A stretch of DNA of 53,172 bases from the IMG/VR virus record IMGVR_UViG_3300009181_000099, positions 1 through 53,172 of that record; one strand, given 5' to 3'. The notes under the pieces were generated by a model. It searched no databases. It worked only from the letters and a program-made list of their open reading frames with translations, and was not told the DNA's origin. This DNA is from a virus. Of the stretch, positions 766 through 53,172 are shown one piece after another; positions within the stretch are counted from its first letter, which is position 1, and every line of letters starts with the position of its first letter. A program made the position numbers and the translations under genes.

Positions 766-3700
766 ATGAATCAAGAATTCGTAACAAGACGCGGTTTAAT
801 ATCCCAAGGTGGTATAACATTTCCATATGTTGGTATAACAACAACATATTCAATATCTTCAGACGATTATTTTATAGAATGTACTTCAGGTACTTTTAAT
901 GTAACTTTACCAACAGCTGTAGGTTCAGCTGGTAAAATATATGTAATTAAAAATAGTGATACTGGAGTAATAACAGTTGATACTACTTCATCTGAAACTA
1001 TTGATGGTGTTCTTACAAAAACACTTAATCAATATGATAGTGTTATATTTGAAAGTAATGGAACTAATTGGGTGATTGTTGGAGATTCTGGTTCAGTTTT
1101 TTCTTTGTCAGTTGATAATGGTTTGTCATTAATAGGAGCGACAGCTATTTTAGGTGGTACTATTTCACAAAATACAATTTTACATGGTGAAGAATATGAT
1201 TTGATAATGTCTAATTTTGATAATCTTTATTTCACTTCTTCAGTTTTTGATGTTGAATCTGACTTTATAAGTTTAGATTCGGGTATAGGATCTATTCAAA
1301 TCATTTCAGGTCAGGATATTGTATTAGTTGCTAATGATGTATTAACAATATCAGCAACATCAGGAAATATTACAACTTTTAACCTAGAAGGATTAGTTTA
1401 TACAGCCGATTATAACGCTACTTTTGTTACACATTCACTGGTCGATAAACAATATGTTGACTCATTAATCAATGCTGTTGGTGCTACAAATGGTTTAAGT
1501 GAGGTTTCATCTGGTGTTATTGCGTTGGGTGGTACTATTTCACAAAATACACTCCTACATGGTGAAGGTTATGATTTAACTATTGAAAACTTTAATAGTC
1601 TTTACTTTACATCTTCTATTTTTGATGTTGAGGCGGATCTTATAAGTTTAGATGCTGGTACTGGTACTGTTCAAATATTCGGAGATTCTGGTGTGGATAT
1701 AGTATCTGCTAGTTCTTCAATAACTATCTCAGGTGAGTCTGGTTTAGTAACTATCAGTAATTTAGAAGGATTGGTTTATACGGCAGATTATAACCCTACA
1801 TTTGTTACACATTCATTAATTGATAAACAATATGTTGATTCATTATTCTCACTTACAGGTGGTAGCTTTTATACTGAAGTCACACATTCTGTTTTATTAG
1901 GATTAATTGCTTCAAACTCATTAGGAACAGCATCTAACTATTTAATAACAGACTATCAAACCATTTATTTAGCTCCTGATTATTATTGGGATGGTAATAT
2001 AAGAACCTCAACTGCATCTTATGGTCCAGTTGAACCAATATTGGTTACTGCTTTGTCTTGTAACTCATTAGTAGTTGATGCTTATCAACCAAACTGGCCA
2101 CTTGATACAATTAAATATGATGTTACTCAACAATCAATTGGGTCCGATGGTATATCAATGGGTACAATAATTGAAAGAGTTGATGAATATGGAAACAGAA
2201 CAGACTATGATCATAGAAATGTTTTATATAAAAGATATCAATCATATAATAGAGATACAATCTCATCACATGCTGATAAAAGATTAGCAGGTGTTATAAC
2301 AGATTATGATTGCACAACGGGAGTCATTAATGGTAATGGTACTGCATTCCTTACACAACTTTCTGTAGGTGATATCATTCTTATAGAGATTAATAATTTT
2401 ACACAGGTAGGAGTTAAAGTTACTACTATTTATAGCGATATACTTATTGATGTTCTGATAGATTCTAGTTTTGCAGCTACTGTCTTCTCAGCTGAATCTT
2501 TTGAATATTACGCTTCTGTTCTATTAATTGGATCAGGTAATCCTGGTGATTACTCTCAATATTGTGATTGGAAAGAAGTTTATGTTGGTCAATCCGATGC
2601 TGGTGACTGGGCTAGTAGATATACATTTGATTTTGATTATGAAATAATAGATAGTGGTCAAGTTTTGTCTAAAAATAACTTTATTAATAATCACGAGGGG
2701 GTTCTGTATGGTTCAGGATTTGTTCTTTCAAATATAGTTTTTGGTAGAGAATCTATTTCCAATACTATTGGAAATTACTCTTTTGATAATACTCTACCTA
2801 TAGGTTCTACTGGTAATTTTATCGGTGATTATTTTAATAGTAATACTATTTATGGAAATAGTGGTGCTGATGTTATCAGTGGTTCTAAATTTAATGACAA
2901 TAGAATAGATAATAACTTTGAAGGAAATACCATTTTTGGAGTATTCAAAAGTAATCAAATAGGAAATGGATTTACTGATAATTATATTAATAGTTTGGAA
3001 CAATCATTTTCTCAGGACACTAATAGAGGATTCTCTTTCAATACAATTGGAGTATCTGATATAATTTCGGTTATTTTTATACCTAAATGTTTTAATAGAA
3101 ATAAAATAATGGGAACATTTAGAGATAACACTATTGGAACATCTTTCTATTCTAATAAAATATATAATTTCTTTAGAGATAATCAAATAGGATCTAAATT
3201 TGAGGAGAATGAGATAGGAACTATTGATTTTTTAGATAGTAATTCAGGTTTTAGATTTACTAGTAATATAATCAGAGATGGTTTTATTGGAAATATATTT
3301 TATAATTCAAATTTTTATAACAATAACATTGGTGATTCATTCACTGGTAATATAATCAGAGGAGAGTTCTATGGTAATCAAATAGGAGTTGACTTTCGAT
3401 ATAATAAAACAAATAACGAATTTTCATCCAATCAAATAGGAAATAATTTTAGTTATAATGACACATTCTGTAATTATTTTAATAATCAAATAGGAAATAA
3501 TTTCTATGATAATAATTTTGGTGATAATACTAAATGGGGGTGGAATGATTTGAGTAACATTTCGGGTAGAAATTTTAATTTATTTTCTACCTCACTTGAT
3601 TATTTTGGAGGTGATTTTAGAGATAAAATTATTCTTGAAGAACTTGTTATGTTTGATGTTGTTAATAACCAATATTATAGAGTTATGTTTACTAGATTTA

Positions 3701-6700
3701 CACCAGGTTCTTTTGGTGGTGGATTTTCATATGAAAGAACAGAGATAGATCCAATAACCGGATTAGATATTGGCTCTACTGTTTATTTTACTAAAACCGA
3801 TGGTGGTTTCGAAGTTGATATTATATCAGCTGGTGTTTTAGAAATAACTGGTGATGTGCTTAATGATGGTTTCTACAACTCAGTATCTGAGAGTTCTTAT
3901 ACTGGAGGTTTTTCACCAGATGGTACATTATGGAATTCAAGGTATACTGTTTATGATGATATTAGTGGAACATATAATTATGTCAGTGGAAGTGATTTCA
4001 TTAATAACAAAATTAAAAATGGTTTTGAAAAAAATACTATTAAATCTTTTTTTGGTGGTAAAAATAATAATGGTAACAATATAGATGATGGTTTCTACTC
4101 TAATAATATTAGATTGAACTTTTATGATAATAATATTGGTAATAACTTTAGATCTAATATAATAAAAAATGACTTTATCAGCAATTCAATAGGTAATACT
4201 TTTGCTAATAATAATATAAAAAATAATTTTAAGTTAAATGAGATACAAAATAGTTTTCAAAAAAATTATATAGATTATGATTTTTACTCTAATGAGATAC
4301 AAAATTATTTTGAATCCAATTTAATAGGATATGACTTTCATGGAAATAGTATAGGTAGTTATTTCAAAAATAATCTTATAGGTAATTATGTAAGACCAGC
4401 TAGTTTCTATGATAATGTTATTGGTAATTATTTTGGTACTGATATAAATGGTAATAATCTTGGTAACAATATTAAAACATTATTCTTTGGAAATAGGATA
4501 GGTAACTTCTTTAATGATAATATTCTATTTGAAAACTTCGAAGCTAATAAAATTGGAAATGGATTCTTTCAAAACTTGATTAATGATGGTTTCTATAGTA
4601 ATATTATTGGAGAAGACTTCAAATTTAATTTACTGGATTCAAACTTTACTAATAATAATATTGGAGATGAATTTACTATTAATATTTTTGGTAAAAATTG
4701 TGTCGATAATGTTATTGGTAATCTTTGTTTATTGAACATTGTTGGTAATCGTTTCGATTCTAATAAAATTGGGAACATTTTTGCACAAAATACGATATCA
4801 AATAACTTTACAAATAATAACTTAGGAGATTTAAATACTGATAATATAATTGGAGATGATTTCGTTGGTAATAATACTAAATTGAAATTCAAATTAAATC
4901 AAATACAAGATAACTTCGAATATAATAATGTTGGTATTAATTTTGAATCTAATTATATTCTAGATAACTTCTTAGAAAATGATATTGATAATGACTTCAA
5001 GTTAAATGTAATTGGAACATCAAGTGTTTATGGTAATAGTGCAAACTTCGAAAAGAATGTTATTGGACATTCATTTAAGTCTAATAGAATCGGTCAAGGA
5101 TTTAAAAGTAATCAAATTAAAGATTACTTCCTTAAAAATGAAATAGGATATGCATTTGAGTATAATGTAATAGGTAGTTATTTTGGAAACGATGAGACGA
5201 CTCCTAATTTTTATTTCCCAATTCCATTTTCCAATAGAATCAAAGACTTTTTTAATAATAACAGAATTGGTGACTATTTCGGGTATGATATAAATGGTGG
5301 TGGTGGAAACGGTGGTAACCTAATTGGTACTAAGTTTAACTTCAATACAATTGGACATGCATTTGTGTTTAACATTGCATATACTGACCAATTTGGTGGT
5401 GATTGTATGTCTACTAATACTATTGGTGATGACTTTTCGGTTAATACTATAAAACCACATTTCAATTTTAATACAATTGGAAATCTATTCCGAAATAATG
5501 ATATAGATACCGATTTTACTGGAAATACTATTCCGTATTTCTTCTATTCAAATACAATAGGTAAATATTTTTTATCAAATGTGTTATCATTTACTACTAT
5601 GTTTAATAACATTAAAGATGGGTTTGAGTCAAATCATATTGGTGATTCATTTATTGGTAACTTTATCAACATTGGTTGTGCTAGAAATGTCATAGGTGAT
5701 TTAATGGGATCTACTACACTTGGTAATACAATAGGTAAAGATTTCACGGATAATAATATCGGTAATAACTTTAGATTAAATACTATTGATAGATACTTTC
5801 AACATAATGAAATCGGAAACTTCTTTGAAGGTAATGATATTGGTGTTAGGTTTCAACATAATGAAATCGGAAGCTATTTTGGAGCTAAACAAAATCTATT
5901 CTTCTCTATTTATACTCCTACTGGAAATACTACCAAAGAAGACTTTATAAGTAATAAAATTGGAAATTATTTTGGTAATGATTTTAATTATCCAGCCGGT
6001 TCTGGTGGTGAAGATGGTGGTAATTTAGTGGCCGGTTCATTTAAAAATAACATATTCGGAGATAATGTTATTTTTAATATTTTTGATAAAATCTTTCAAT
6101 GGAATCAATTAGGAAATGAAATTTGGTACAACTCTTTTGGTAAATCTTCTACAAGTAATAAAATTGGAAACCTATTTGTTGGTAATAGTGGTAATGGTGG
6201 TTGGCCTAATATGATGGGTCCTAGATTTGTTTTAAATTCTATAGGAGATATTACTGGATTTAACCAGATAAGAAGAGAATTTCAACATAATAAAATCGGA
6301 AATAGATTTGGTAATTCTACATTAACAGGACCTTCAAATGACATTCGTGCTGGATTTCAAAGAAATGTTATAGGTAATTATTTTGGATCTGATAGAAATT
6401 TTGGAAATACCCGAGGTGGTAATTTTATAGAATCTGATTTTGTGGATAATCAGATTGGTAATGAATTTATGTATAATTTAATATCTTATTCATTTTCTGG
6501 TAACCTTATATACAATCTTTTTACCAATAATAGTATAGGATACTCTTTCACCTATAATTACATTAGTGATGGATTTGATGATAATAATGTACAGGAGCTT
6601 TTCAGTTATAATAAAATAGTAACAAATAAATTTTTTAGCAATATTATTGACAGAAATTTTAAACAAAATATAATTGAAACCGAAATAAGTTCAGTTGATT

Positions 6701-7092
6701 TTACAACATATAATGGTGAGATATTAACTTATACATTGACAACTTCTATTGCTGGAACAAATGGAACTTACACTGGATTAACACCTACAGGACCATCAAG
6801 TCTTAGTGGAACTGGAGCCACTTTTGATGTAGTTGTGTCAGGTGGTGTCGTTTCATCTGTTTCTATAAATACCGGTGGTAAGTATTATTTACCTGGTAAT
6901 ACATTTGGTATAAATGGCGCTTATATTGGTGGATCTTCAGGATCTAATTTTATTATAACCATAAATAATGTTAGAATTCCATCAGTTTATGCGACTTATA
7001 GTTGTCACATAATTGAAAGATATGATGGTGTTAAGAGATTAACTTATCATAATGCTTTTGATGCATTAACAGTAAAAAATATTAATATATAA
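766..7092 (+). CDS. Giant solenoid tail-fibre/adhesin protein (2108 aa)
   Basis: Domains in order: an N-terminal beta-rich region (about 1-115); a tandem duplication of a 124-residue unit ending in a DKQYVDSL motif (about 118-360); a linker domain (about 370-640); then a very long, regular array of short repeats of the form N-x-I-G-x-x-F-x-x-N-x-I-x-x-x-F-x-x-N (about 640-1975), spacing near 10 residues, interrupted by a non-repeat domain at about 925-1075; finally a Gly/Ser-rich beta domain (about 1983-2072) and a short tail. Stacked Ile/Phe and Asn positions every 10 residues strongly suggest a right-handed parallel beta-solenoid. It sits between a collagen-like fibre gene and small companions, so a distal fibre or adhesin is the best reading. 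A related C-terminal beta domain occurs in the 18336-24497 protein. No catalytic motif was recognised. Confidence 0.8.
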   Translation: MNQEFVTRRGLISQGGITFPYVGITTTYSISSDDYFIECTSGTFNVTLPTAVGSAGKIYVIKNSDTGVITVDTTSSETIDGVLTKTLNQYDSVIFESNGTNWVIVGDSGSVFSLSVDNGLSLIGATAILGGTISQNTILHGEEYDLIMSNFDNLYFTSSVFDVESDFISLDSGIGSIQIISGQDIVLVANDVLTISATSGNITTFNLEGLVYTADYNATFVTHSLVDKQYVDSLINAVGATNGLSEVSSGVIALGGTISQNTLLHGEGYDLTIENFNSLYFTSSIFDVEADLISLDAGTGTVQIFGDSGVDIVSASSSITISGESGLVTISNLEGLVYTADYNPTFVTHSLIDKQYVDSLFSLTGGSFYTEVTHSVLLGLIASNSLGTASNYLITDYQTIYLAPDYYWDGNIRTSTASYGPVEPILVTALSCNSLVVDAYQPNWPLDTIKYDVTQQSIGSDGISMGTIIERVDEYGNRTDYDHRNVLYKRYQSYNRDTISSHADKRLAGVITDYDCTTGVINGNGTAFLTQLSVGDIILIEINNFTQVGVKVTTIYSDILIDVLIDSSFAATVFSAESFEYYASVLLIGSGNPGDYSQYCDWKEVYVGQSDAGDWASRYTFDFDYEIIDSGQVLSKNNFINNHEGVLYGSGFVLSNIVFGRESISNTIGNYSFDNTLPIGSTGNFIGDYFNSNTIYGNSGADVISGSKFNDNRIDNNFEGNTIFGVFKSNQIGNGFTDNYINSLEQSFSQDTNRGFSFNTIGVSDIISVIFIPKCFNRNKIMGTFRDNTIGTSFYSNKIYNFFRDNQIGSKFEENEIGTIDFLDSNSGFRFTSNIIRDGFIGNIFYNSNFYNNNIGDSFTGNIIRGEFYGNQIGVDFRYNKTNNEFSSNQIGNNFSYNDTFCNYFNNQIGNNFYDNNFGDNTKWGWNDLSNISGRNFNLFSTSLDYFGGDFRDKIILEELVMFDVVNNQYYRVMFTRFTPGSFGGGFSYERTEIDPITGLDIGSTVYFTKTDGGFEVDIISAGVLEITGDVLNDGFYNSVSESSYTGGFSPDGTLWNSRYTVYDDISGTYNYVSGSDFINNKIKNGFEKNTIKSFFGGKNNNGNNIDDGFYSNNIRLNFYDNNIGNNFRSNIIKNDFISNSIGNTFANNNIKNNFKLNEIQNSFQKNYIDYDFYSNEIQNYFESNLIGYDFHGNSIGSYFKNNLIGNYVRPASFYDNVIGNYFGTDINGNNLGNNIKTLFFGNRIGNFFNDNILFENFEANKIGNGFFQNLINDGFYSNIIGEDFKFNLLDSNFTNNNIGDEFTINIFGKNCVDNVIGNLCLLNIVGNRFDSNKIGNIFAQNTISNNFTNNNLGDLNTDNIIGDDFVGNNTKLKFKLNQIQDNFEYNNVGINFESNYILDNFLENDIDNDFKLNVIGTSSVYGNSANFEKNVIGHSFKSNRIGQGFKSNQIKDYFLKNEIGYAFEYNVIGSYFGNDETTPNFYFPIPFSNRIKDFFNNNRIGDYFGYDINGGGGNGGNLIGTKFNFNTIGHAFVFNIAYTDQFGGDCMSTNTIGDDFSVNTIKPHFNFNTIGNLFRNNDIDTDFTGNTIPYFFYSNTIGKYFLSNVLSFTTMFNNIKDGFESNHIGDSFIGNFINIGCARNVIGDLMGSTTLGNTIGKDFTDNNIGNNFRLNTIDRYFQHNEIGNFFEGNDIGVRFQHNEIGSYFGAKQNLFFSIYTPTGNTTKEDFISNKIGNYFGNDFNYPAGSGGEDGGNLVAGSFKNNIFGDNVIFNIFDKIFQWNQLGNEIWYNSFGKSSTSNKIGNLFVGNSGNGGWPNMMGPRFVLNSIGDITGFNQIRREFQHNKIGNRFGNSTLTGPSNDIRAGFQRNVIGNYFGSDRNFGNTRGGNFIESDFVDNQIGNEFMYNLISYSFSGNLIYNLFTNNSIGYSFTYNYISDGFDDNNVQELFSYNKIVTNKFFSNIIDRNFKQNIIETEISSVDFTTYNGEILTYTLTTSIAGTNGTYTGLTPTGPSSLSGTGATFDVVVSGGVVSSVSINTGGKYYLPGNTFGINGAYIGGSSGSNFIITINNVRIPSVYATYSCHIIERYDGVKRLTYHNAFDALTVKNINI
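1117..1845 (+). repeat. Tandem duplication, 372-bp period, in solenoid fibre gene
   Basis: Copy 1 about 1117-1467 and copy 2 about 1489-1845 encode matching segments beginning NGLS, passing through LGGTISQNT and FTSS[VI]FDVE, and ending DKQYVDSL. The copies have diverged at many codons, so the duplication is old. Confidence 0.85.
2674..6690 (+). repeat. Degenerate ~30-bp repeat array encoding the N-x-IG-xx-F solenoid
   Basis: Dozens of consecutive units with recurring words such as AATAATATTGG, AATAAATTGG, GATAACTTC and TATTTTGG, each encoding about 10 residues. The array is broken by a non-repetitive insert at about 3541-4010. Exact copy number was not counted. Confidence 0.8.
7082..7091 (+). 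promoter_or_regulatory. TTAATATATA element, 4 bp before ATG
   Basis: Exact copy of the recurrent 10-mer, here overlapping the last codons of the solenoid fibre gene and 4 bp before the ATG of the next gene. Candidate late promoter by position and recurrence. Confidence 0.4.
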
Positions 7093-24528: not shown

Positions 24529-24552
24529 TTTATCTTTTCTTAGTAAGTGAAT

Positions 24553-24562
24553 TTAATATATA
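24553..24562 (+). promoter_or_regulatory. TTAATATATA element, 5 bp before ATG
   Basis: Exact plus-strand copy; context TTTAATATATATGAGTATGA is nearly the same as at 49073-49092. The spacing selects the ATG at 24568. Confidence 0.45.
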
Positions 24563-24567
24563 TGAGT

Positions 24568-24942
24568 ATGAAAATTAACAGATATAATCAATTTATCAAC
24601 GAAGAGTTTTTTAAGAAGATATTTAATAACTCTAAGAAAAAGAATAAGACTACTAAACTGAGTAGAATCGATTCTTGTGTTGTTAATATTTTAGACTTTC
24701 TATCAGAAAATGATGTTTACAACTGGAACAAATTTCTAAAAATGTCGCAATTTGATAGAGATGTTATTGATAAATTAATAGACTCTGAAGTTAATAATAT
24801 GGATGAATTAAGAGAAGTTAGATTCAGACTTAAATTAGAATTAGGTGATAGAAAACAACTTATGGAATACAAAGATGAGTTAGAATCCGAAGAGGAATAT
24901 GAAAAATGTGCTCAAATTGTAAAAAAATTAAGCCAAAAATAA
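24568..24942 (+). CDS. Leader-bearing hypothetical protein (124 aa)
   Basis: The ATG at 24568 gives MKINRYNQFINEE, which matches the shared capsid-targeting-like leader, so it is preferred to the in-frame ATG at 24562 and GTG at 24547. A predicted protease site lies at FINE/EFF. The mature part is a charged helical protein (LELGDRKQLMEYKDELESEE) with no family recognised. First of six short plus-strand genes with gaps of 3-14 bp or overlaps. Candidate virion-internal protein by analogy with T4 IP proteins. Confidence 0.7.
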   Translation: MKINRYNQFINEEFFKKIFNNSKKKNKTTKLSRIDSCVVNILDFLSENDVYNWNKFLKMSQFDRDVIDKLIDSEVNNMDELREVRFRLKLELGDRKQLMEYKDELESEEEYEKCAQIVKKLSQK

Positions 24943-25974: not shown

Positions 25975-26009
25975 ATGAAACACTTAAAAACATATAAAAT
26001 ATTTGAATC
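25975..26009 (+). repeat. 35-nt leader repeat, copy 1
   Basis: First 35 nucleotides of the gene (encoding MKHLKTYKIFES) match 26526-26560 at 34 of 35 positions, though the rest of the two genes is unrelated by eye. Confidence 0.9.
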
Positions 26010-26529
26010 GTCCGAAGAAGATGATTATGTGGACTCACTTTTGGATAAAATATCTAAAAAAGGAATAGATTCTTTAAGTGACTCTGAAAAAAATAGATTG
26101 AATAAAATAACATCAGACAATATTGAGGATAGAACTCTCAGAATCATAAATGGTGAAATTTACATTGGAGATGTTTCCCACGATAGATTTAATTCTCCAG
26201 AATATAAAAAACATATTTATCCTAAATCAGATATCATTTCAGATGCTAATAGAATGTTCTTTTCAGAAATAAAAAAGATGAATATTGACCAAATAGAATT
26301 AAATTCTAAAATATATGAATTTGAGATTATAGAAGAAATGTCTGGTGAACATCTTAAGATTGGTGACTACATATTAAATCCTTTTTGGGAAGGAAGTAAA
26401 GAAATATCTATAAATCACTTGAATAAATATTATACTTATCCATTAAAATATATACCAATATATAAAAATGAGATGGTTGATTTTATAAAAGACTTCCTAT
26501 CTAAAATATTACCAGAAATAATAGAATGA
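25975..26529 (+). CDS. Leader-bearing protein with DKI helical motif (184 aa)
   Basis: N-terminus MKHLKTYKIFESSEED is the clearest T4-IP-like leader in the window; predicted cut after IFE fits (I/L)-x-E. Residues about 18-45 carry VDSLLDKISKKGIDSLSDSE, a helical motif shared with two other proteins here. The remainder contains small beta-rich segments (RIINGEIYIGDVSHDRF; HLKIGDYILNPFWEG). No enzyme signature. Its stop overlaps the next start (ATGA). Candidate injected or capsid-internal protein. Confidence 0.7.
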   Translation: MKHLKTYKIFESSEEDDYVDSLLDKISKKGIDSLSDSEKNRLNKITSDNIEDRTLRIINGEIYIGDVSHDRFNSPEYKKHIYPKSDIISDANRMFFSEIKKMNIDQIELNSKIYEFEIIEEMSGEHLKIGDYILNPFWEGSKEISINHLNKYYTYPLKYIPIYKNEMVDFIKDFLSKILPEIIE

Positions 26530-26560
26530 AACACTTAAAAACATATCAAATATTTGAATC
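26526..26560 (+). repeat. 35-nt leader repeat, copy 2
   Basis: Second copy of the near-identical leader coding sequence (one mismatch), encoding MKHLKTYQIFES. Confidence 0.9.
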
Positions 26561-27332
26561 TGAATTTTTTACAATCAGTGACGAGAGAAGAAAAAAACTA
26601 ATTGATTTTATAAATAGTAGTTTAGATGGTGCGGATATGGATTTTTCTTCTTGGATATATCAAAATATAATTCGAGGAAAAGAAGAACATACAGAACTTA
26701 ATGATTTTATTCAAAAAGTATCTCCTAATTGGAAAAAAATACTCGATGAATACTTAGCTAAGTATAAAAGTGGAGTAATGAAAATTGGACAAGATGACCA
26801 AAATGAGTGGTTTGGTGTAAATTATAACTCAAGTCTTAAACAAAAAGAAGTAATAGGTGATCAAGAGATAACAAAAAACTTTTATGTAACATTTGAGAAA
26901 AGCGAAGACAACCTGAAAAGATGGTTCAATGGACTAGGAACTCTTATAAGTGACTTTTACAAAGCTTGCACAGAAGGTGAATTAAAAAACTCGGCAATTT
27001 CTTTCAAATGTGGATATGATGGTAAACATTTTATAGAAGACAATGACCATCTAAAGTTTTATTGGTATAAAGATGATGATAAAAATAAAGTATTAGAAGT
27101 ATATAATAATTGGTTGAAGAAAACTGGTATACAAACTAAGAAAAGAGCTTATGATTTTGGAATAGACACTGCAAAAGGTAGAGATAAAAATAGCTTTGGT
27201 CTAATGGTTGCAACTAAGGTGAATAACCAGTTTCAAAAACTTAAATCACAGTATGGAAAAAAGTTTACATCTGAACAATATGCAGATTATATAATAGATA
27301 TGTTAAACAAAACAAAGTTTAAAATTGATTAA
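26526..27332 (+). CDS. Leader-bearing hypothetical protein (268 aa)
   Basis: N-terminus MKHLKTYQIFESEFF carries the shared leader, almost identical in DNA to the preceding gene. The body is unrelated: mixed alpha/beta with many Trp and Tyr (WFGVNYNSSLKQKE; YVTFEKSEDNLKRWFNGLGT; HLKFYWYKDDDKNKVLEVYN). No family recognised. It overlaps the upstream stop by 4 bp. An ADP-ribosyltransferase or similar effector, as known for T4 Alt, was looked for, but no catalytic motif was seen. Confidence 0.7.
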   Translation: MKHLKTYQIFESEFFTISDERRKKLIDFINSSLDGADMDFSSWIYQNIIRGKEEHTELNDFIQKVSPNWKKILDEYLAKYKSGVMKIGQDDQNEWFGVNYNSSLKQKEVIGDQEITKNFYVTFEKSEDNLKRWFNGLGTLISDFYKACTEGELKNSAISFKCGYDGKHFIEDNDHLKFYWYKDDDKNKVLEVYNNWLKKTGIQTKKRAYDFGIDTAKGRDKNSFGLMVATKVNNQFQKLKSQYGKKFTSEQYADYIIDMLNKTKFKID

Positions 27333-35273: not shown

Positions 35274-35840
35274 CTATTTTTGAGTTTCTGAGGATATTTT
35301 TTTAATATAATCCATCATTTCTTTTTCTACATTAGACATTTTTGTATCAAGAGCCTTTTGAGCATCCGAAATATCTTTAACTAATGATGATATAGTCGTA
35401 GTTTTAGTCGATATTCTTGTATTTATATCGGTTAACTTTTTACTAACAGCAGCTTTTGTGCTAGTTTCAGTTGCTAAACTTAGTTCTTCTTGAAAATCAT
35501 CTTTTGATATTTTATCCTTAGTTATATCTTTTTGAAACTTATCTACTTTTCTTTTAAGATTAGCTACATGTAAATATTCTACTAAAAAAGGATTTCTATC
35601 TTTTTCTGGTAAGGCATCAGTCTTACCAACTATTCCATCTACAGCTGATTTTAAATCAATATCAGTTAAAGCTGTTAGATAAGCTTTATCAAGTAAAGGT
35701 TTTTTAGTCTTATAATCAGTGAGATTTTTCTTTAATGTTTCTAACTTTTCCTTAGACATTTTTAAATCTGGTTCATCAGTGATATTTGTCTCAAAATCAA
35801 CTTCTTCCGTAAATAGTTTGTACTTTTTTAAGTATTTCAT
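35274..35840 (-). CDS. Leader-bearing coiled-coil protein (188 aa)
   Basis: Begins MKYLKKYKLFTEEVDFE, matching the shared capsid-targeting-like leader with a probable cut after FTE. The body is charged and heptad-like over most of its length (KLETLKKNLTDYKTKKPLLD; LTDINTRISTKTTTISSLVK), predicting a long coiled coil. Such proteins suit a scaffold/core or internal-protein role. One bp separates its start from the stop of the upstream 961-aa gene, so both are co-expressed. Confidence 0.7.
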   Translation of the reverse strand: MKYLKKYKLFTEEVDFETNITDEPDLKMSKEKLETLKKNLTDYKTKKPLLDKAYLTALTDIDLKSAVDGIVGKTDALPEKDRNPFLVEYLHVANLKRKVDKFQKDITKDKISKDDFQEELSLATETSTKAAVSKKLTDINTRISTKTTTISSLVKDISDAQKALDTKMSNVEKEMMDYIKKISSETQK

Positions 35841-42197: not shown

Positions 42198-44327
42198 ATG
42201 GCAGTAGCTAAACAACAAGAAAGACAGATGATTTTCACTACTAAATTAGTAGATGAAGCAACAGATAAAATAAACGATGGTATAGTCGTTAAAAGATACC
42301 AAAACCCTTGGTTGAAAAGTGAGGTTGGTATTAGAAGAGCAGGTGCCTCATTTAAGATGACCACTGATGAACAACAAGAGTATGTTAGATGTGCTTTAGA
42401 TGTTCACTACTTTACCGAAAAATATTGTAAAGTTAAAACAGAAGATGGATCTATTGATAATATTCTATTAAGAGATTATCAGAAAGAAATGCTTGACAAC
42501 TTTGTTAATAATAGATTTAGTATTTTAATGGCATCTCGTCAGGTAGGTAAGACTATCTCATCTTCTATTTTTATGTTACATACTATTCTATTTAATAATG
42601 ATAAGAATATAATGATTGTTGCTAACAAAGGTGATACAGCTGTTGAAATTGTCGATAAGATTAAATCTATCTACTCATTATTACCTTTCTTCTTAAAACC
42701 CGGTATTAAAACTTGGAATCAGAAGTCATTAACATTTGAAAATGGATGTAGAATTAAAACATCTGCTAGAACAAAGACACCAGCTATCGGTTTTACCATT
42801 GACGTACTTTACTTAGATGAGTTTGCGCACATTCCGTCAAATATCATTGAACCATATTATACCGCTGCTTTTCCAACCGTATCAGCCGTTCAAAACTCAA
42901 AGATTATTATTACTTCAACTCCTAATGGTATGAATTTATTCCATAGATTGTTGACAGATGCTGAAAGACCAGATGGTGATCCACTAAAGAATAACTATAA
43001 AGCGATGAGAGTTTATTGGTATCAAGTTCCGGGTCGATTTATAACTTATATCAGATTAAACGCTCATAAAATGTATGAGTATGGTGTTACTAAAGAAGAA
43101 ATATTTCAAGTAGTACAAGATAGATGGTCTCAACATACAAAACTTGAGATGAAGTATATCACTGATAATATGAAAGATGTTATCTATGTTTATAATAATG
43201 ATAAATGTACAGATGAAGAAGTTAAAAAAACAACTTTTATTGATAAGAATGGATTTGAAGTTCCTATTTTAGCTATATCTGAAATGACAACTTGGAAGGA
43301 AGAGGCTATAAAGGATATCGGTGGTGAAGATGCCTTCAATCAAGAATATGGACTAAGATTTATTAATGCTTCTAAATCATTACTTAATGAGGCTATTATT
43401 GATGATTTATTAAGAAATAAAAAGAATTATATATTTGAAGAAATACACGAGTTTGATAGAAAACTTAAATTTAGTTATAACGACTTAAAGTGGGTTGATG
43501 ATGATAATATATTCATACCACTTAAAAGAAAAGATTATAAAATAGTCATTTCAGTTGATATATCTGAAGGTTTAGGTCAAGATTACTCTATAATAAATAT
43601 TTTTAGAGTTTCTGAGAAACCGAAAGATCTCATAGAATCTCAAAAAGCGTCTTATAAATCTATTGTTGATTTCTTTAGATTAGAACAAATTGGTATTTTC
43701 AGAAATAATTTTATTTCAGTTAAACAATTAGCTGAGTTACTTTATATGATTGTCTTTGAATACTTAAACCCAGAAAACATTAAAGTAGTAGTTGAGTTAA
43801 ATAACTATGGTAATACTTTATTTGCTGAGTTACCACATGTTTTTGATGGAAATAATAACTATGGTTCTTCGGTTTTTGTTAGATATAAACATAGAGCTGA
43901 CGCAACTGAGGAAAAAATGGGTTTAAAGGTAGGTGAGAATAAAAATCTTATGGTTAAAGATTATCAAGACTTAATGCAAAGTAAATCATTTGTTATAAAT
44001 AATGAGGATAATATAAGAGAGATAACAACTTTTGTCAAACATACAACAACGGCCGGTAATACTAGATATGCGGCTGATGTTGGGAATGATGATAGTGTTA
44101 TGACTATAGTTAATGCTACTACTATATTTAGTAGACATGAATTTTCTGAAATGGTAGAGGATTGGTCTAGCAAATTTGTTGATAAAGAATTCACAAACTA
44201 TGTTCAAGAAAGTCTTAAAAATATGGACTATGTTGACGGAGTTGATTATGGACAAGTCCTGAAAATAAGAAAGCAACAAATGAATAGATATAAAGGTAGT
44301 CAGGGAAAAAACTGGTTTAATAGTTAA
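42198..44327 (+). CDS. terL: Terminase large subunit (T4 gp17-like, 709 aa)
   Basis: ATPase: Walker A ASRQVGKT (112-119), Walker B VLYLDE (203-208), coupling motif TSTPNG (239-244). Nuclease (RNase H fold): ISVDISEGLGQDYS (about 452-465), VVELNNYGNT (about 533-542) and ADVGNDDS (about 625-632) supply the acidic metal ligands. The protein drives headful packaging of DNA into the prohead and cuts the concatemer. Length is a little above T4 gp17 (610), with an insert between ATPase and nuclease (about 330-420). The stop overlaps the convergent ClpS gene by 4 bp. Confidence 0.93.
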   Translation: MAVAKQQERQMIFTTKLVDEATDKINDGIVVKRYQNPWLKSEVGIRRAGASFKMTTDEQQEYVRCALDVHYFTEKYCKVKTEDGSIDNILLRDYQKEMLDNFVNNRFSILMASRQVGKTISSSIFMLHTILFNNDKNIMIVANKGDTAVEIVDKIKSIYSLLPFFLKPGIKTWNQKSLTFENGCRIKTSARTKTPAIGFTIDVLYLDEFAHIPSNIIEPYYTAAFPTVSAVQNSKIIITSTPNGMNLFHRLLTDAERPDGDPLKNNYKAMRVYWYQVPGRFITYIRLNAHKMYEYGVTKEEIFQVVQDRWSQHTKLEMKYITDNMKDVIYVYNNDKCTDEEVKKTTFIDKNGFEVPILAISEMTTWKEEAIKDIGGEDAFNQEYGLRFINASKSLLNEAIIDDLLRNKKNYIFEEIHEFDRKLKFSYNDLKWVDDDNIFIPLKRKDYKIVISVDISEGLGQDYSIINIFRVSEKPKDLIESQKASYKSIVDFFRLEQIGIFRNNFISVKQLAELLYMIVFEYLNPENIKVVVELNNYGNTLFAELPHVFDGNNNYGSSVFVRYKHRADATEEKMGLKVGENKNLMVKDYQDLMQSKSFVINNEDNIREITTFVKHTTTAGNTRYAADVGNDDSVMTIVNATTIFSRHEFSEMVEDWSSKFVDKEFTNYVQESLKNMDYVDGVDYGQVLKIRKQQMNRYKGSQGKNWFNS

Positions 44328-44608
44328 TCATTAGACTCCATAGTTGCTGAAAGACCAGCACCTCTTAGTTTATCTTTCATTGTTGAGATTGTTTCTAAAT
44401 CTCCGTATTTAACATCACATTTTCCTTTATAGTGGATTATATGAGCACATTGATTAGCTTGTTCTAACTCGTGGTTACAAACTTTCATTAAACAAGTAAT
44501 AACCCAATCAAATGTATTGTGATCATCATTGTGAAGAATTAGCTTATAAGGTTTTGCTAAAATTTCTTGTACTTTCGATTTTGTTTTCTTTTTAGTAATT
44601 GTTGCCAT
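44324..44608 (-). CDS. clpS: ClpS-like adaptor of the Clp protease (94 aa)
   Basis: Nearly the full ClpS core is present: YKLILHNDDHNTFDWVI (21-37), with the N-degron pocket residues of the HNDD..T region, KVCNHELEQANQCAHIIHYK (42-61) including the conserved HxxG-type region replaced by HIIHYKGKC, and a C-terminal GLSATMES strand. Cellular ClpS delivers N-end-rule substrates to ClpAP/ClpCP and blocks others. The extension before the core is short and basic. It is followed, in the same direction of transcription, by no further gene and preceded by the HAD phosphatase gene (3 bp gap). A phage copy could redirect host proteolysis. Confidence 0.88.
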   Translation of the reverse strand: MATITKKKTKSKVQEILAKPYKLILHNDDHNTFDWVITCLMKVCNHELEQANQCAHIIHYKGKCDVKYGDLETISTMKDKLRGAGLSATMESND

Positions 44609-44611
44609 AGA

Positions 44612-45139
44612 TTATATATTTTTATATTTAGTCTCTTCTTTTTTAATAACGTCTACTATTGTTATATCAACATGATGTTCAGATGCCCATTCTTCAAATT
44701 TAACTAAGTGTTCGTGTCTATCATCATACATAACAAACTCTTTAACACCAAGTTCTTCTATTTTTTCTTCGAATAGTTTAGTTTTAAAGTTATATGTGTC
44801 ACCTCCCCAGTTTAAGTGGATTTCATCAAATGATAAATTGTGTTGATTTAGAATACTCATAACATTAGCAAGCATTCCTTCCTTCTTTTTAAGACGACCT
44901 GTTGCTAGAATAACATAGTTATCTGGATTAGCTACAGCTTCTAAATACTTAGCATATACCCATTGGTTTAGAGGTACATAAAATATTTCTGGATCAATAC
45001 TTTCTGGTCTACCCCACCAACCATTGTATGGCCAATCTGTTCCGGTTTTTTCTTTCCAAATTTTTTCACCTTCTTCGGGTTTTGGTGTGTGACATAAGGT
45101 GTCATCAAAATCGAATGATATTAATCTTTTATACTTCAT
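44612..45139 (-). CDS. HAD superfamily phosphatase (175 aa)
   Basis: Motif I FDFDDTLCHTP (9-19), motif II ILATGRLKKKEG (about 77-88, Thr), Lys in the FKTKLFEEKI region, and motif IV YDDRHEHL (about 138-145). The insert PYNGWWGRPESID is characteristic of small HAD proteins annotated in phages and Bacteroidota as RNA-repair-like or nucleotidase-like phosphatases. Complete catalytic set, so probably active; substrate not evident. Transcribed with clpS from a region with a TATATTTG element. Confidence 0.8.
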   Translation of the reverse strand: MKYKRLISFDFDDTLCHTPKPEEGEKIWKEKTGTDWPYNGWWGRPESIDPEIFYVPLNQWVYAKYLEAVANPDNYVILATGRLKKKEGMLANVMSILNQHNLSFDEIHLNWGGDTYNFKTKLFEEKIEELGVKEFVMYDDRHEHLVKFEEWASEHHVDITIVDVIKKEETKYKNI

Positions 45140-45165: not shown

Positions 45166-45173
45166 CAAATATA
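45166..45173 (-). promoter_or_regulatory. Bacteroidota-type -7 element TATATTTG before HAD-clpS unit
   Basis: Minus-strand TATATTTG 26 bp upstream of the ATG at 45139; no TTTG at the proper -33 position. Suggests host-polymerase (early) transcription of the HAD and clpS genes. Confidence 0.5.
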
Positions 45174-46235: not shown

Positions 46236-46952
46236 ATGAAGCATATTAGAACATTTGAAACCTATCGTATTAAAAAGAACAGAGAAGAAATTATTAAAGA
46301 GTCTGTTTTTCAAGTAAACGATATTTATAAAGTTAAGACTATGATTGATATTCCTCAGTCATTAATTAATGCTTATGTGAAGAAAGTAAAAGATACTACT
46401 GGTAAAAACCTTCGTCAATTTTTTGGTGATGTTGACATCGCTGAAGAAATCGTTAAGTATATCAATATGAACAACTTAGATGTTGAAAAAATTCCAGGTG
46501 GCGCATTAATGGGTGGTCAAACACAAGGACAAACTCAAGGTCAAGCACAACCACAAGTACAAACTGAAGGTGAGGCTCAAACTCAACCACAAGCTCAACC
46601 ACAAGCTCAACCACAAGCTCAACCAGAAGGTCAAGCACAAGCTCAACCACAGGCTCAGCCAGAAGGTCAAGGACAAGCTCAACCAGCTCAAGGACAAGCT
46701 CAACCAGCTCAAGGACAAACTCAAGGTGAATTTGAAGAACCAGCACAAGGTCAAGCACAAGCTCAACCAGCTCAAGGACAAACTCAAGGACAAACTCAAG
46801 GACAGGCACAAGCTCAACCAGCTCAAGTACAGGCACAAGGACAAGCTCAACCAGCTCAAGGTGAAGAAGAGGAAGAGGAAGAAACTGAAGAAGAAACTGA
46901 AGAAGAAACTGAAGAAGAAACTGAAGAAGGTGAAGAAGAATTACCTCTTTAA
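46236..46952 (+). CDS. Leader-bearing Gln/Pro-repeat protein with acidic tail (238 aa)
   Basis: N-terminus MKHIRTFETYRIKKN resembles the shared leader. Residues 20-88 are a folded helical region. Residues about 90-207 are low-complexity repeats of GQAQ/PAQ/TQG units; residues about 208-235 are almost all Glu and Thr (EEETEEETEE). No family recognised. An acidic tail plus a capsid-targeting-like leader recalls T4 prohead core proteins such as gp67, which are Glu-rich and destroyed by the prohead protease; this is inference. Single gene between a late-type motif and a terminator. Confidence 0.65.
   Translation: MKHIRTFETYRIKKNREEIIKESVFQVNDIYKVKTMIDIPQSLINAYVKKVKDTTGKNLRQFFGDVDIAEEIVKYINMNNLDVEKIPGGALMGGQTQGQTQGQAQPQVQTEGEAQTQPQAQPQAQPQAQPEGQAQAQPQAQPEGQGQAQPAQGQAQPAQGQTQGEFEEPAQGQAQAQPAQGQTQGQTQGQAQAQPAQVQAQGQAQPAQGEEEEEEETEEETEEETEEETEEGEEELPL
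46510..46950 (+). repeat. Tandem low-complexity repeats (Gln/Ala/Pro then Glu/Thr codons)
   Basis: Words CAAGCTCAACCA, GGACAAACTCAA and later GAAGAAACTGAA recur many times. Open frames in other phases and on the other strand here arise from the repeat and are not genes. Confidence 0.85.
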
Positions 46953-52269: not shown

Positions 52270-53172
52270 TTAAGCTTCTGTTTCAACACCACTATATACC
52301 GTTTCTAACATTCTTTCTGAAACTAAATAAGGATCACAATTTGATGCTGGTCTTCTATCTTCAAAGTAACCTTTCTTTTCAATTATAGCTTGTGCTGGAA
52401 TTCTAATAGAAGTATCTCTTGTAGAAAATCCATAACTGAAATCATTAATACTTGATGTTTCGTGTTGTCCTGTTAATCTTTCTTCATTGAATAAACCATA
52501 GATTTCAATGTGTTCTTTTTGAAATCTCTCTAATTTAGGCATCGTTTCTTTGATTACATCTAATCCACCTTCTTCTCTCATTTCCTTAGTAGAAAAGTTC
52601 ACATGACATCCAGTTCCGTTCCAGTCCCCTTTTAATGGTTTTGGATGAAGTGAAACATTAGTATCATACTTTTCAGCAACTCTTTGTAGTAAATATCTAG
52701 AAACCCATAATTGGTCTGATCCATTTAATGATGTAACTGGACCAATTTGATATTCCCATTGTCCGAGTAATACTTCAGCGTTTATTCCTGATATATCTAA
52801 ACCTACTTCTATACACATATCCATATGCTCTTCAACTATATTACGACCAATAACCGTATCAGCTCCGATTCCACAATAATAATCACCTTGTGGTCTTGGA
52901 TTTAATGAGGTTCCTATTCCTGGATGTAAAATATCTTTTGTAAATCCTAATGGTAAACCTTCACCTTCAACAAAAGGATTTCCTGTCTTATGTGTTAGTG
53001 TGTATTCTTGTTCCCAACCAAACCAAGGTTGTTCGTTTTTATCAATCGTCTCACTTAATCCTAACTGATTCATTTTTTCTTCTAACTTATATCTGTGATT
53101 AGTTATGTGTGGAGTTCCGTCAGGATTTAATACTTCACAAAATACTAATCTGTGTGGATATCCTCTGAATGG
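52270..53172 (-). CDS. glnII: Type II glutamine synthetase, C-terminal 300 residues (5' end outside window)
   Basis: The frame is open to the window edge; the ATG at 53073 is internal because the preceding codons read PFRGYPHRLVFCEVLNPDG, a normal GSII segment. Clear eukaryote-like GSII motifs: WFGWEQEYTL, GDYYCGIGAD, NAEVLLGQWEYQIGP, GDWNGTGCHVNFSTKEMREE, INDFSYGFSTRDTSIRIP and RPASNCDPYLVSERMLETV. Metal-binding Glu residues and substrate Arg appear intact, so it should be active: glutamate + ammonia + ATP to glutamine. GSII-type enzymes occur in eukaryotes and some bacteria, including Bacteroidota. In a phage it is an auxiliary metabolic gene, possibly sustaining nucleotide and amino-acid synthesis. 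Ends at the shared terminator. Confidence 0.92.
   Translation of the reverse strand, partial: PFRGYPHRLVFCEVLNPDGTPHITNHRYKLEEKMNQLGLSETIDKNEQPWFGWEQEYTLTHKTGNPFVEGEGLPLGFTKDILHPGIGTSLNPRPQGDYYCGIGADTVIGRNIVEEHMDMCIEVGLDISGINAEVLLGQWEYQIGPVTSLNGSDQLWVSRYLLQRVAEKYDTNVSLHPKPLKGDWNGTGCHVNFSTKEMREEGGLDVIKETMPKLERFQKEHIEIYGLFNEERLTGQHETSSINDFSYGFSTRDTSIRIPAQAIIEKKGYFEDRRPASNCDPYLVSERMLETVYSGVETEA

Follow-up and report, generated by a model that had tools for sequence, protein, structure and literature searches.

The window analysed here, 53,172 bases long with 29% GC, spans the whole of an IMG/VR virus record. Profile searches of it matched a T4-type large terminase (TerL), a clamp loader and a late sigma factor, and a tRNA search found none. 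In GenBank it is closest to three huge phages, all uncultured and 634-642 kb long; LR745206 and LR756502 are among the related genomes of this size. For all of their genomes above 634 kb (Mahaphage clade), Al-Shayeb et al. predicted Bacteroidetes hosts (PMC7162821), and Clp is absent from the main text of that paper. Elsewhere in the window, a 2108-aa protein (766-7092, plus strand) contains many repeats of the N-x-I-G-x-x-F-x-x-N type and is possibly a fibre or beta-solenoid protein, and a glutamine synthetase catalytic domain (PF00120, E=9e-19) is encoded at 52270-53073 on the minus strand, near the contig end of this phage record.

The locus of interest comprises three genes: terL (42198..44327, plus strand), which converges on a 94-aa open reading frame (44324..44608, minus strand) so that the two stop codons overlap, and, 3 nt from the latter, a gene for a HAD-family hydrolase (PF10307, HAD_SAK_1; 44612..45139, minus strand). 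The initial annotation had described a full ClpS core with N-degron pocket motifs encoded between TerL and a HAD phosphatase. This arrangement was confirmed, and the assignment to ClpS is borne out by Pfam, fold, residues and selection alike. The product, with an N-terminal extension (residues 1-20) and a core (residues 21-94), scored 68.6 bits with Pfam ClpS (PF02617), whose cut-off is 23 bits (E=4.1e-19), and matched a PHROG annotated as 'ATP-dependent protease' (E=5e-7). Its AF2 model shows ClpS topology, and the top PDB matches are ClpS entries (TMt 0.91-0.96). The NCBIfam ClpS equivalog cut-off was missed (45.7 bits vs 117); since a Chryseobacterium ClpS also falls below it (43.6 bits), these models do not cover this branch of ClpS. 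The open reading frame is a genuine, intact ClpS.

In the binding pocket, residues N27, D28, D29, N31, F33, V36, A55, I58 and H59 correspond to N34, D35, D36, T38, M40, V43, M62, V65 and H66 of E. coli ClpS. Among the 52 distinct phage coding sequences, N27, D28, D29, F33, V36, A55 and H59 are invariant, position 58 is I or V, and the contacts with the alpha-amino group (E. coli N34, D35/D36 and H66) are kept throughout. The hydrophobic specificity pocket is also present, formed by L25, F33, V36, A55 and I/V58; F33 and V36 are the same in all hosts, L25, A55 and I/V58 are common to part of them, and the F that replaces the E. coli gatekeeper M40 occurs in Bacteroidota hosts as well. Over the same 52 sequences, the gene as a whole has a median dN/dS of 0.104, and its N-terminal extension one of 0.126. 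Given the invariant pocket residues and this purifying selection, N-degron binding should have been retained.

A relative of the phage ClpS is encoded at no fewer than 211 viral loci found in one scan. Among the best 80 of these at least 211 loci, TerL adjoins clpS in all 80 and the HAD gene does so in 78, one of the two remaining loci lying at a contig edge. Across loci, TerL identity goes down to about 56% with ClpS still at 75% or more, a comparison biased in favour of ClpS because the loci were picked by ClpS similarity. All 20 selected related records have a single copy of the gene; they, too, were chosen through ClpS. In the phylogenetic tree, 24 of the 25 phage proteins form one clade (99/98) nested in Bacteroidota ClpS. 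Phage clpS belongs to the core genes of a huge-phage lineage found worldwide, is under strong purifying selection and, judging from the tree, is descended from Bacteroidota ClpS. The ClpS of LR756504 (L115) stands apart from the main phage clade on a long branch, which suggests a separate acquisition or replacement; the same genome, with this more host-like ClpS, also encodes a ClpX-like protein (L129) and a ClpC.

The HAD gene is separated from clpS by 3 nt in the window and mostly by 1-44 nt in other loci. About 26-27 nt before the HAD start codon lies TATATTTG (45166..45173, minus strand), which we take to be a Bacteroidota-type -7 element. A host-type element upstream of clpS had been reported in the initial annotation; it is real and conserved, a match to TANNTTTG being kept in 69 of 73 related loci despite differing surrounding bases (some loci are near-copies of each other), but it precedes HAD, with about 560 bp between it and the clpS start codon, and is a promoter candidate for the operon and not directly for clpS. 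Because TATATTTG stands ahead of HAD and the gap between the genes is short, HAD and clpS probably constitute a two-gene operon with HAD first, likely transcribed by a host-type RNA polymerase. A TTG -33 box paired with TAnnTTTG was found at one gene of the window, no more than expected by chance, and was discarded.

The differences from host ClpS that are fixed in the phages spare the pocket; they lie in the N-terminal extension and in residues 65-78. The extension is a conserved basic stretch, MATITKKKTKSKVQEILAKP (44549..44608, minus strand), fixed in the phage lineage and unlike that of the hosts. Its 20 residues ahead of the core, which could reach an unfoldase pore, are modelled with low confidence, with a short helix at 11-18. 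Codons 65-78, DVKYGDLETISTMK (44375..44416, minus strand), cover beta2-alpha3 and hold phage-fixed changes in the region that E. coli ClpS uses for docking to the ClpA N-domain (PMC12493166, PMC9663308). Six of the 11 phage-fixed core positions fall in this stretch (P=0.005), a value that is only indicative, as it ignores shared ancestry and the stretch was chosen post hoc. The E. coli docking residues for the ClpA N-domain, E79, E82 and K84 (PMC12493166), have as their phage equivalents E72 (E/D), S75 and M77, and most Bacteroidota hosts are also without the E. coli pair. The changed surface may reflect drift or a fit to a particular host ClpC.

Twenty related records, mostly fragments, were searched for other Clp genes. 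Eleven of them have ClpP, whose Ser and His motifs are conserved and which reaches three copies per genome; six have a double-AAA+ protein of the ClpC type (mostly fragments). Both occur in the three complete genomes, and most long related genomes carry ClpP. The close relative G320 (ClpS 86%, TerL 85% identity) combines ClpS, ClpC and ClpP on a single contig of 476 kb; in G322 (385 kb), ClpS and ClpC were found but no ClpP. Neither ClpC nor ClpP is present in the 53 kb window, which is a fragment, or was seen in G005, a 176 kb relative 99% identical to it. Leu/Phe-tRNA-protein transferase was found in none of the 20 records, which thus give no sign of phage-made N-degron tagging. In related huge phages (L143:664-2001, L145:1469-2657), a short ClpP-like protein of 188 aa is encoded beside a sigma-70-family factor.

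The phage ClpCs contain AAA_2, AAA_lid_9 and D2-small domains; of the five that were scanned, three have a UVR motif as well. Inspection of their sequences also shows a VGF tripeptide, as is typical of loops that bind ClpP. They start at the linker before D1, and Clp_N is missing; a co-encoded unfoldase with Clp_N was found in 0 of the 20 related records and 0 of three further ones, full-length ClpCs included. The PHROG 4871 alignment to phage ClpC begins only at about position 139-173 of 764, which is consistent with the loss of the N-domain alone. Eighty further viral ClpC loci were of two kinds, N-domain-less (about 650-730 aa) and with an N-domain (mostly 820 aa or more). ClpS occurred on four of 18 long contigs with an N-domain-less ClpC vs none of 11 with an N-domain ClpC (Fisher P=0.27), so that co-occurrence is by itself a weak tie between ClpS and the N-domain-less form. 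In all 10 contigs with both ClpS and ClpC the latter is N-domain-less, a count that includes contigs reached through ClpS. A special acidic motif for docking was considered in the tail of phage ClpC, but the linker of host ClpC has both the acidic run and the KSKTP stretch, so this motif was left unused as evidence. The N-terminal tails of the N-domain-less ClpCs (L220-L248) show, before the acidic linker, a conserved D-I/V-K-x-A-L/S stretch that is absent from the Chryseobacterium ClpC linker and is a possible docking peptide.

As a separate observation, the ClpC of contig G012 (L142:1984-4041) begins with MKKLKLYELFTGEEGE, which resembles a capsid-targeting-like peptide, and this protein might be packaged in the phage head. 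Within the window, the proteins at 24547-24942, 25975-26529, 26526-27332 and 35274-35840 begin with a common peptide such as MKHLKTYQIFESE or MKINRYNQFINEE, with looser cases at 46236 and 47021. The strict pattern is found in four of 49 genes vs 1.3% of internal 20-mers, and matches to Peptidase_S77 (prohead protease) in six related records were weak and below cut-off. These shared peptides are similar to the T4 capsid-targeting sequence, and the proteins that carry them may be internal head proteins.

The explanation we favour, with a probability of about 0.5, is that phage ClpS is a functional N-degron adaptor for a phage-encoded ClpCP, to which it docks in a non-canonical way. Its pocket would take proteins with bulky hydrophobic N-terminal residues, which during infection would be passed on to a Clp protease. 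As partner, a ClpC-type unfoldase of the phage itself, together with phage ClpP, is the most likely, as encoded in relatives. As this ClpC has no canonical ClpS dock, delivery would need the changed surface. The N-terminal extension may thread into the pore, as in E. coli ClpAPS (PMC9663308), and beta2-alpha3 may contact another part of ClpC, perhaps the middle domain, a contact proposed for M. tuberculosis ClpS (PMC6274998). Since 285 of 297 Bacteroidota genomes encode their own ClpS, a phage copy serving that same partner would be superfluous. We suggest more tentatively an adaptation of ClpS to a ClpC that is by nature N-domain-less; this would represent a new docking mode between adaptor and unfoldase and an N-degron proteolysis independent of host ClpS-ClpC.

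Docking of phage ClpS on the N-domain of host ClpC, redirecting host ClpCP to N-degrons or suppressing the degradation of SsrA-tagged or other substrates, is less probable but a serious alternative. The initial annotation had pointed to such steering of ClpAP/ClpCP; a phage adaptor with an intact pocket stands, and a host partner is available in principle, as ClpC/ClpB-type proteins with Clp_N are found in four of four Chryseobacterium genomes. The core fold is intact in the model, the operon carries a host-type promoter, and in other phages host ClpAP has been put forward as the target by Iyer et al. (PMC7824862). However, the host machine is neither the only nor the most parsimonious partner, since related phages encode ClpC and most long ones ClpP; the hosts already possess a ClpS, the partner-facing region differs from theirs at fixed positions, and phage ClpC co-occurs with phage ClpS. 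A decoy, holding degrons or host ClpC unproductively and so blocking N-degron turnover, is unlikely. Inhibition by ClpS has precedents, in the degradation of SsrA substrates in E. coli (PMC12493166) and in unfolding by ClpC1 of M. tuberculosis (PMC6274998), but the block of N-end-rule turnover raised in the initial annotation is disfavoured because every N-degron-contact residue is conserved under purifying selection, and the low dN/dS of the extension (about 0.13) and the phage ClpP of many relatives also argue against it. That clpS is a passenger, recently picked up from a host and with no role in infection, agrees with its clear bacterial ancestry but is refuted in practice by conservation, namely the fixed location, deep monophyly, dN/dS of 0.10 and relatives at the many viral loci.

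Phage ClpS has so far been noted only in passing and presumed to feed host ClpAP. Here, a conserved ClpS of a widespread huge-phage lineage and, in its relatives, a Clp machine without the canonical dock offer a natural setting in which to test how unfoldases are found by their adaptors, and also whether phages degrade host proteins through N-degrons.

Among known systems, Bacteroidota ClpS such as that of Chryseobacterium is up to 56% identical and agrees in its pocket, the F at E. coli position 40 included; it likewise lacks the C-terminal PL motif and misses the NCBIfam equivalog cut-offs. Unlike it, the phage protein has a different and strongly conserved N-terminal extension, fixed substitutions at 65-78 and a phage genome context. 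E. coli ClpS, as part of ClpAPS, shares the fold and the N-degron contacts N34, D35, D36, V43 and H66, but in phage ClpS E82 is replaced by S, K84 by M, M40 by F and M62 by A, and the N-domain is missing from the ClpC of the phage lineage. In M. tuberculosis, ClpS inhibits ClpC1 without its N-domain, dependent on middle-domain residues (PMC6274998), and thus also acts on a ClpC deprived of this domain; however, that deletion was engineered and its effect is inhibitory, whereas the phage deletion is natural and would serve delivery. The ClpS proteins of PA5oct, Atu_ph07, GAP32, Vibrio 2.275.O, Kaldavass and Phosso are also phage-borne with a co-encoded Clp unfoldase (PMC6102473, PMC7824862), found in six of these six jumbo phages, with Clp_N kept in five, but they are divergent in sequence and neighbour IF-3, thymidine kinase or heat-shock genes instead of TerL-HAD. 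From these gene contents, phage ClpS normally comes with its own unfoldase, which in the present lineage is without the canonical dock. The literature searched contained no description of a phage with ClpC, ClpP and ClpS as a complete set. Phage clpS alone is a known kind of gene (PMC7824862, PMC6102473), and its pairing with an N-domain-less ClpC appears to be new.
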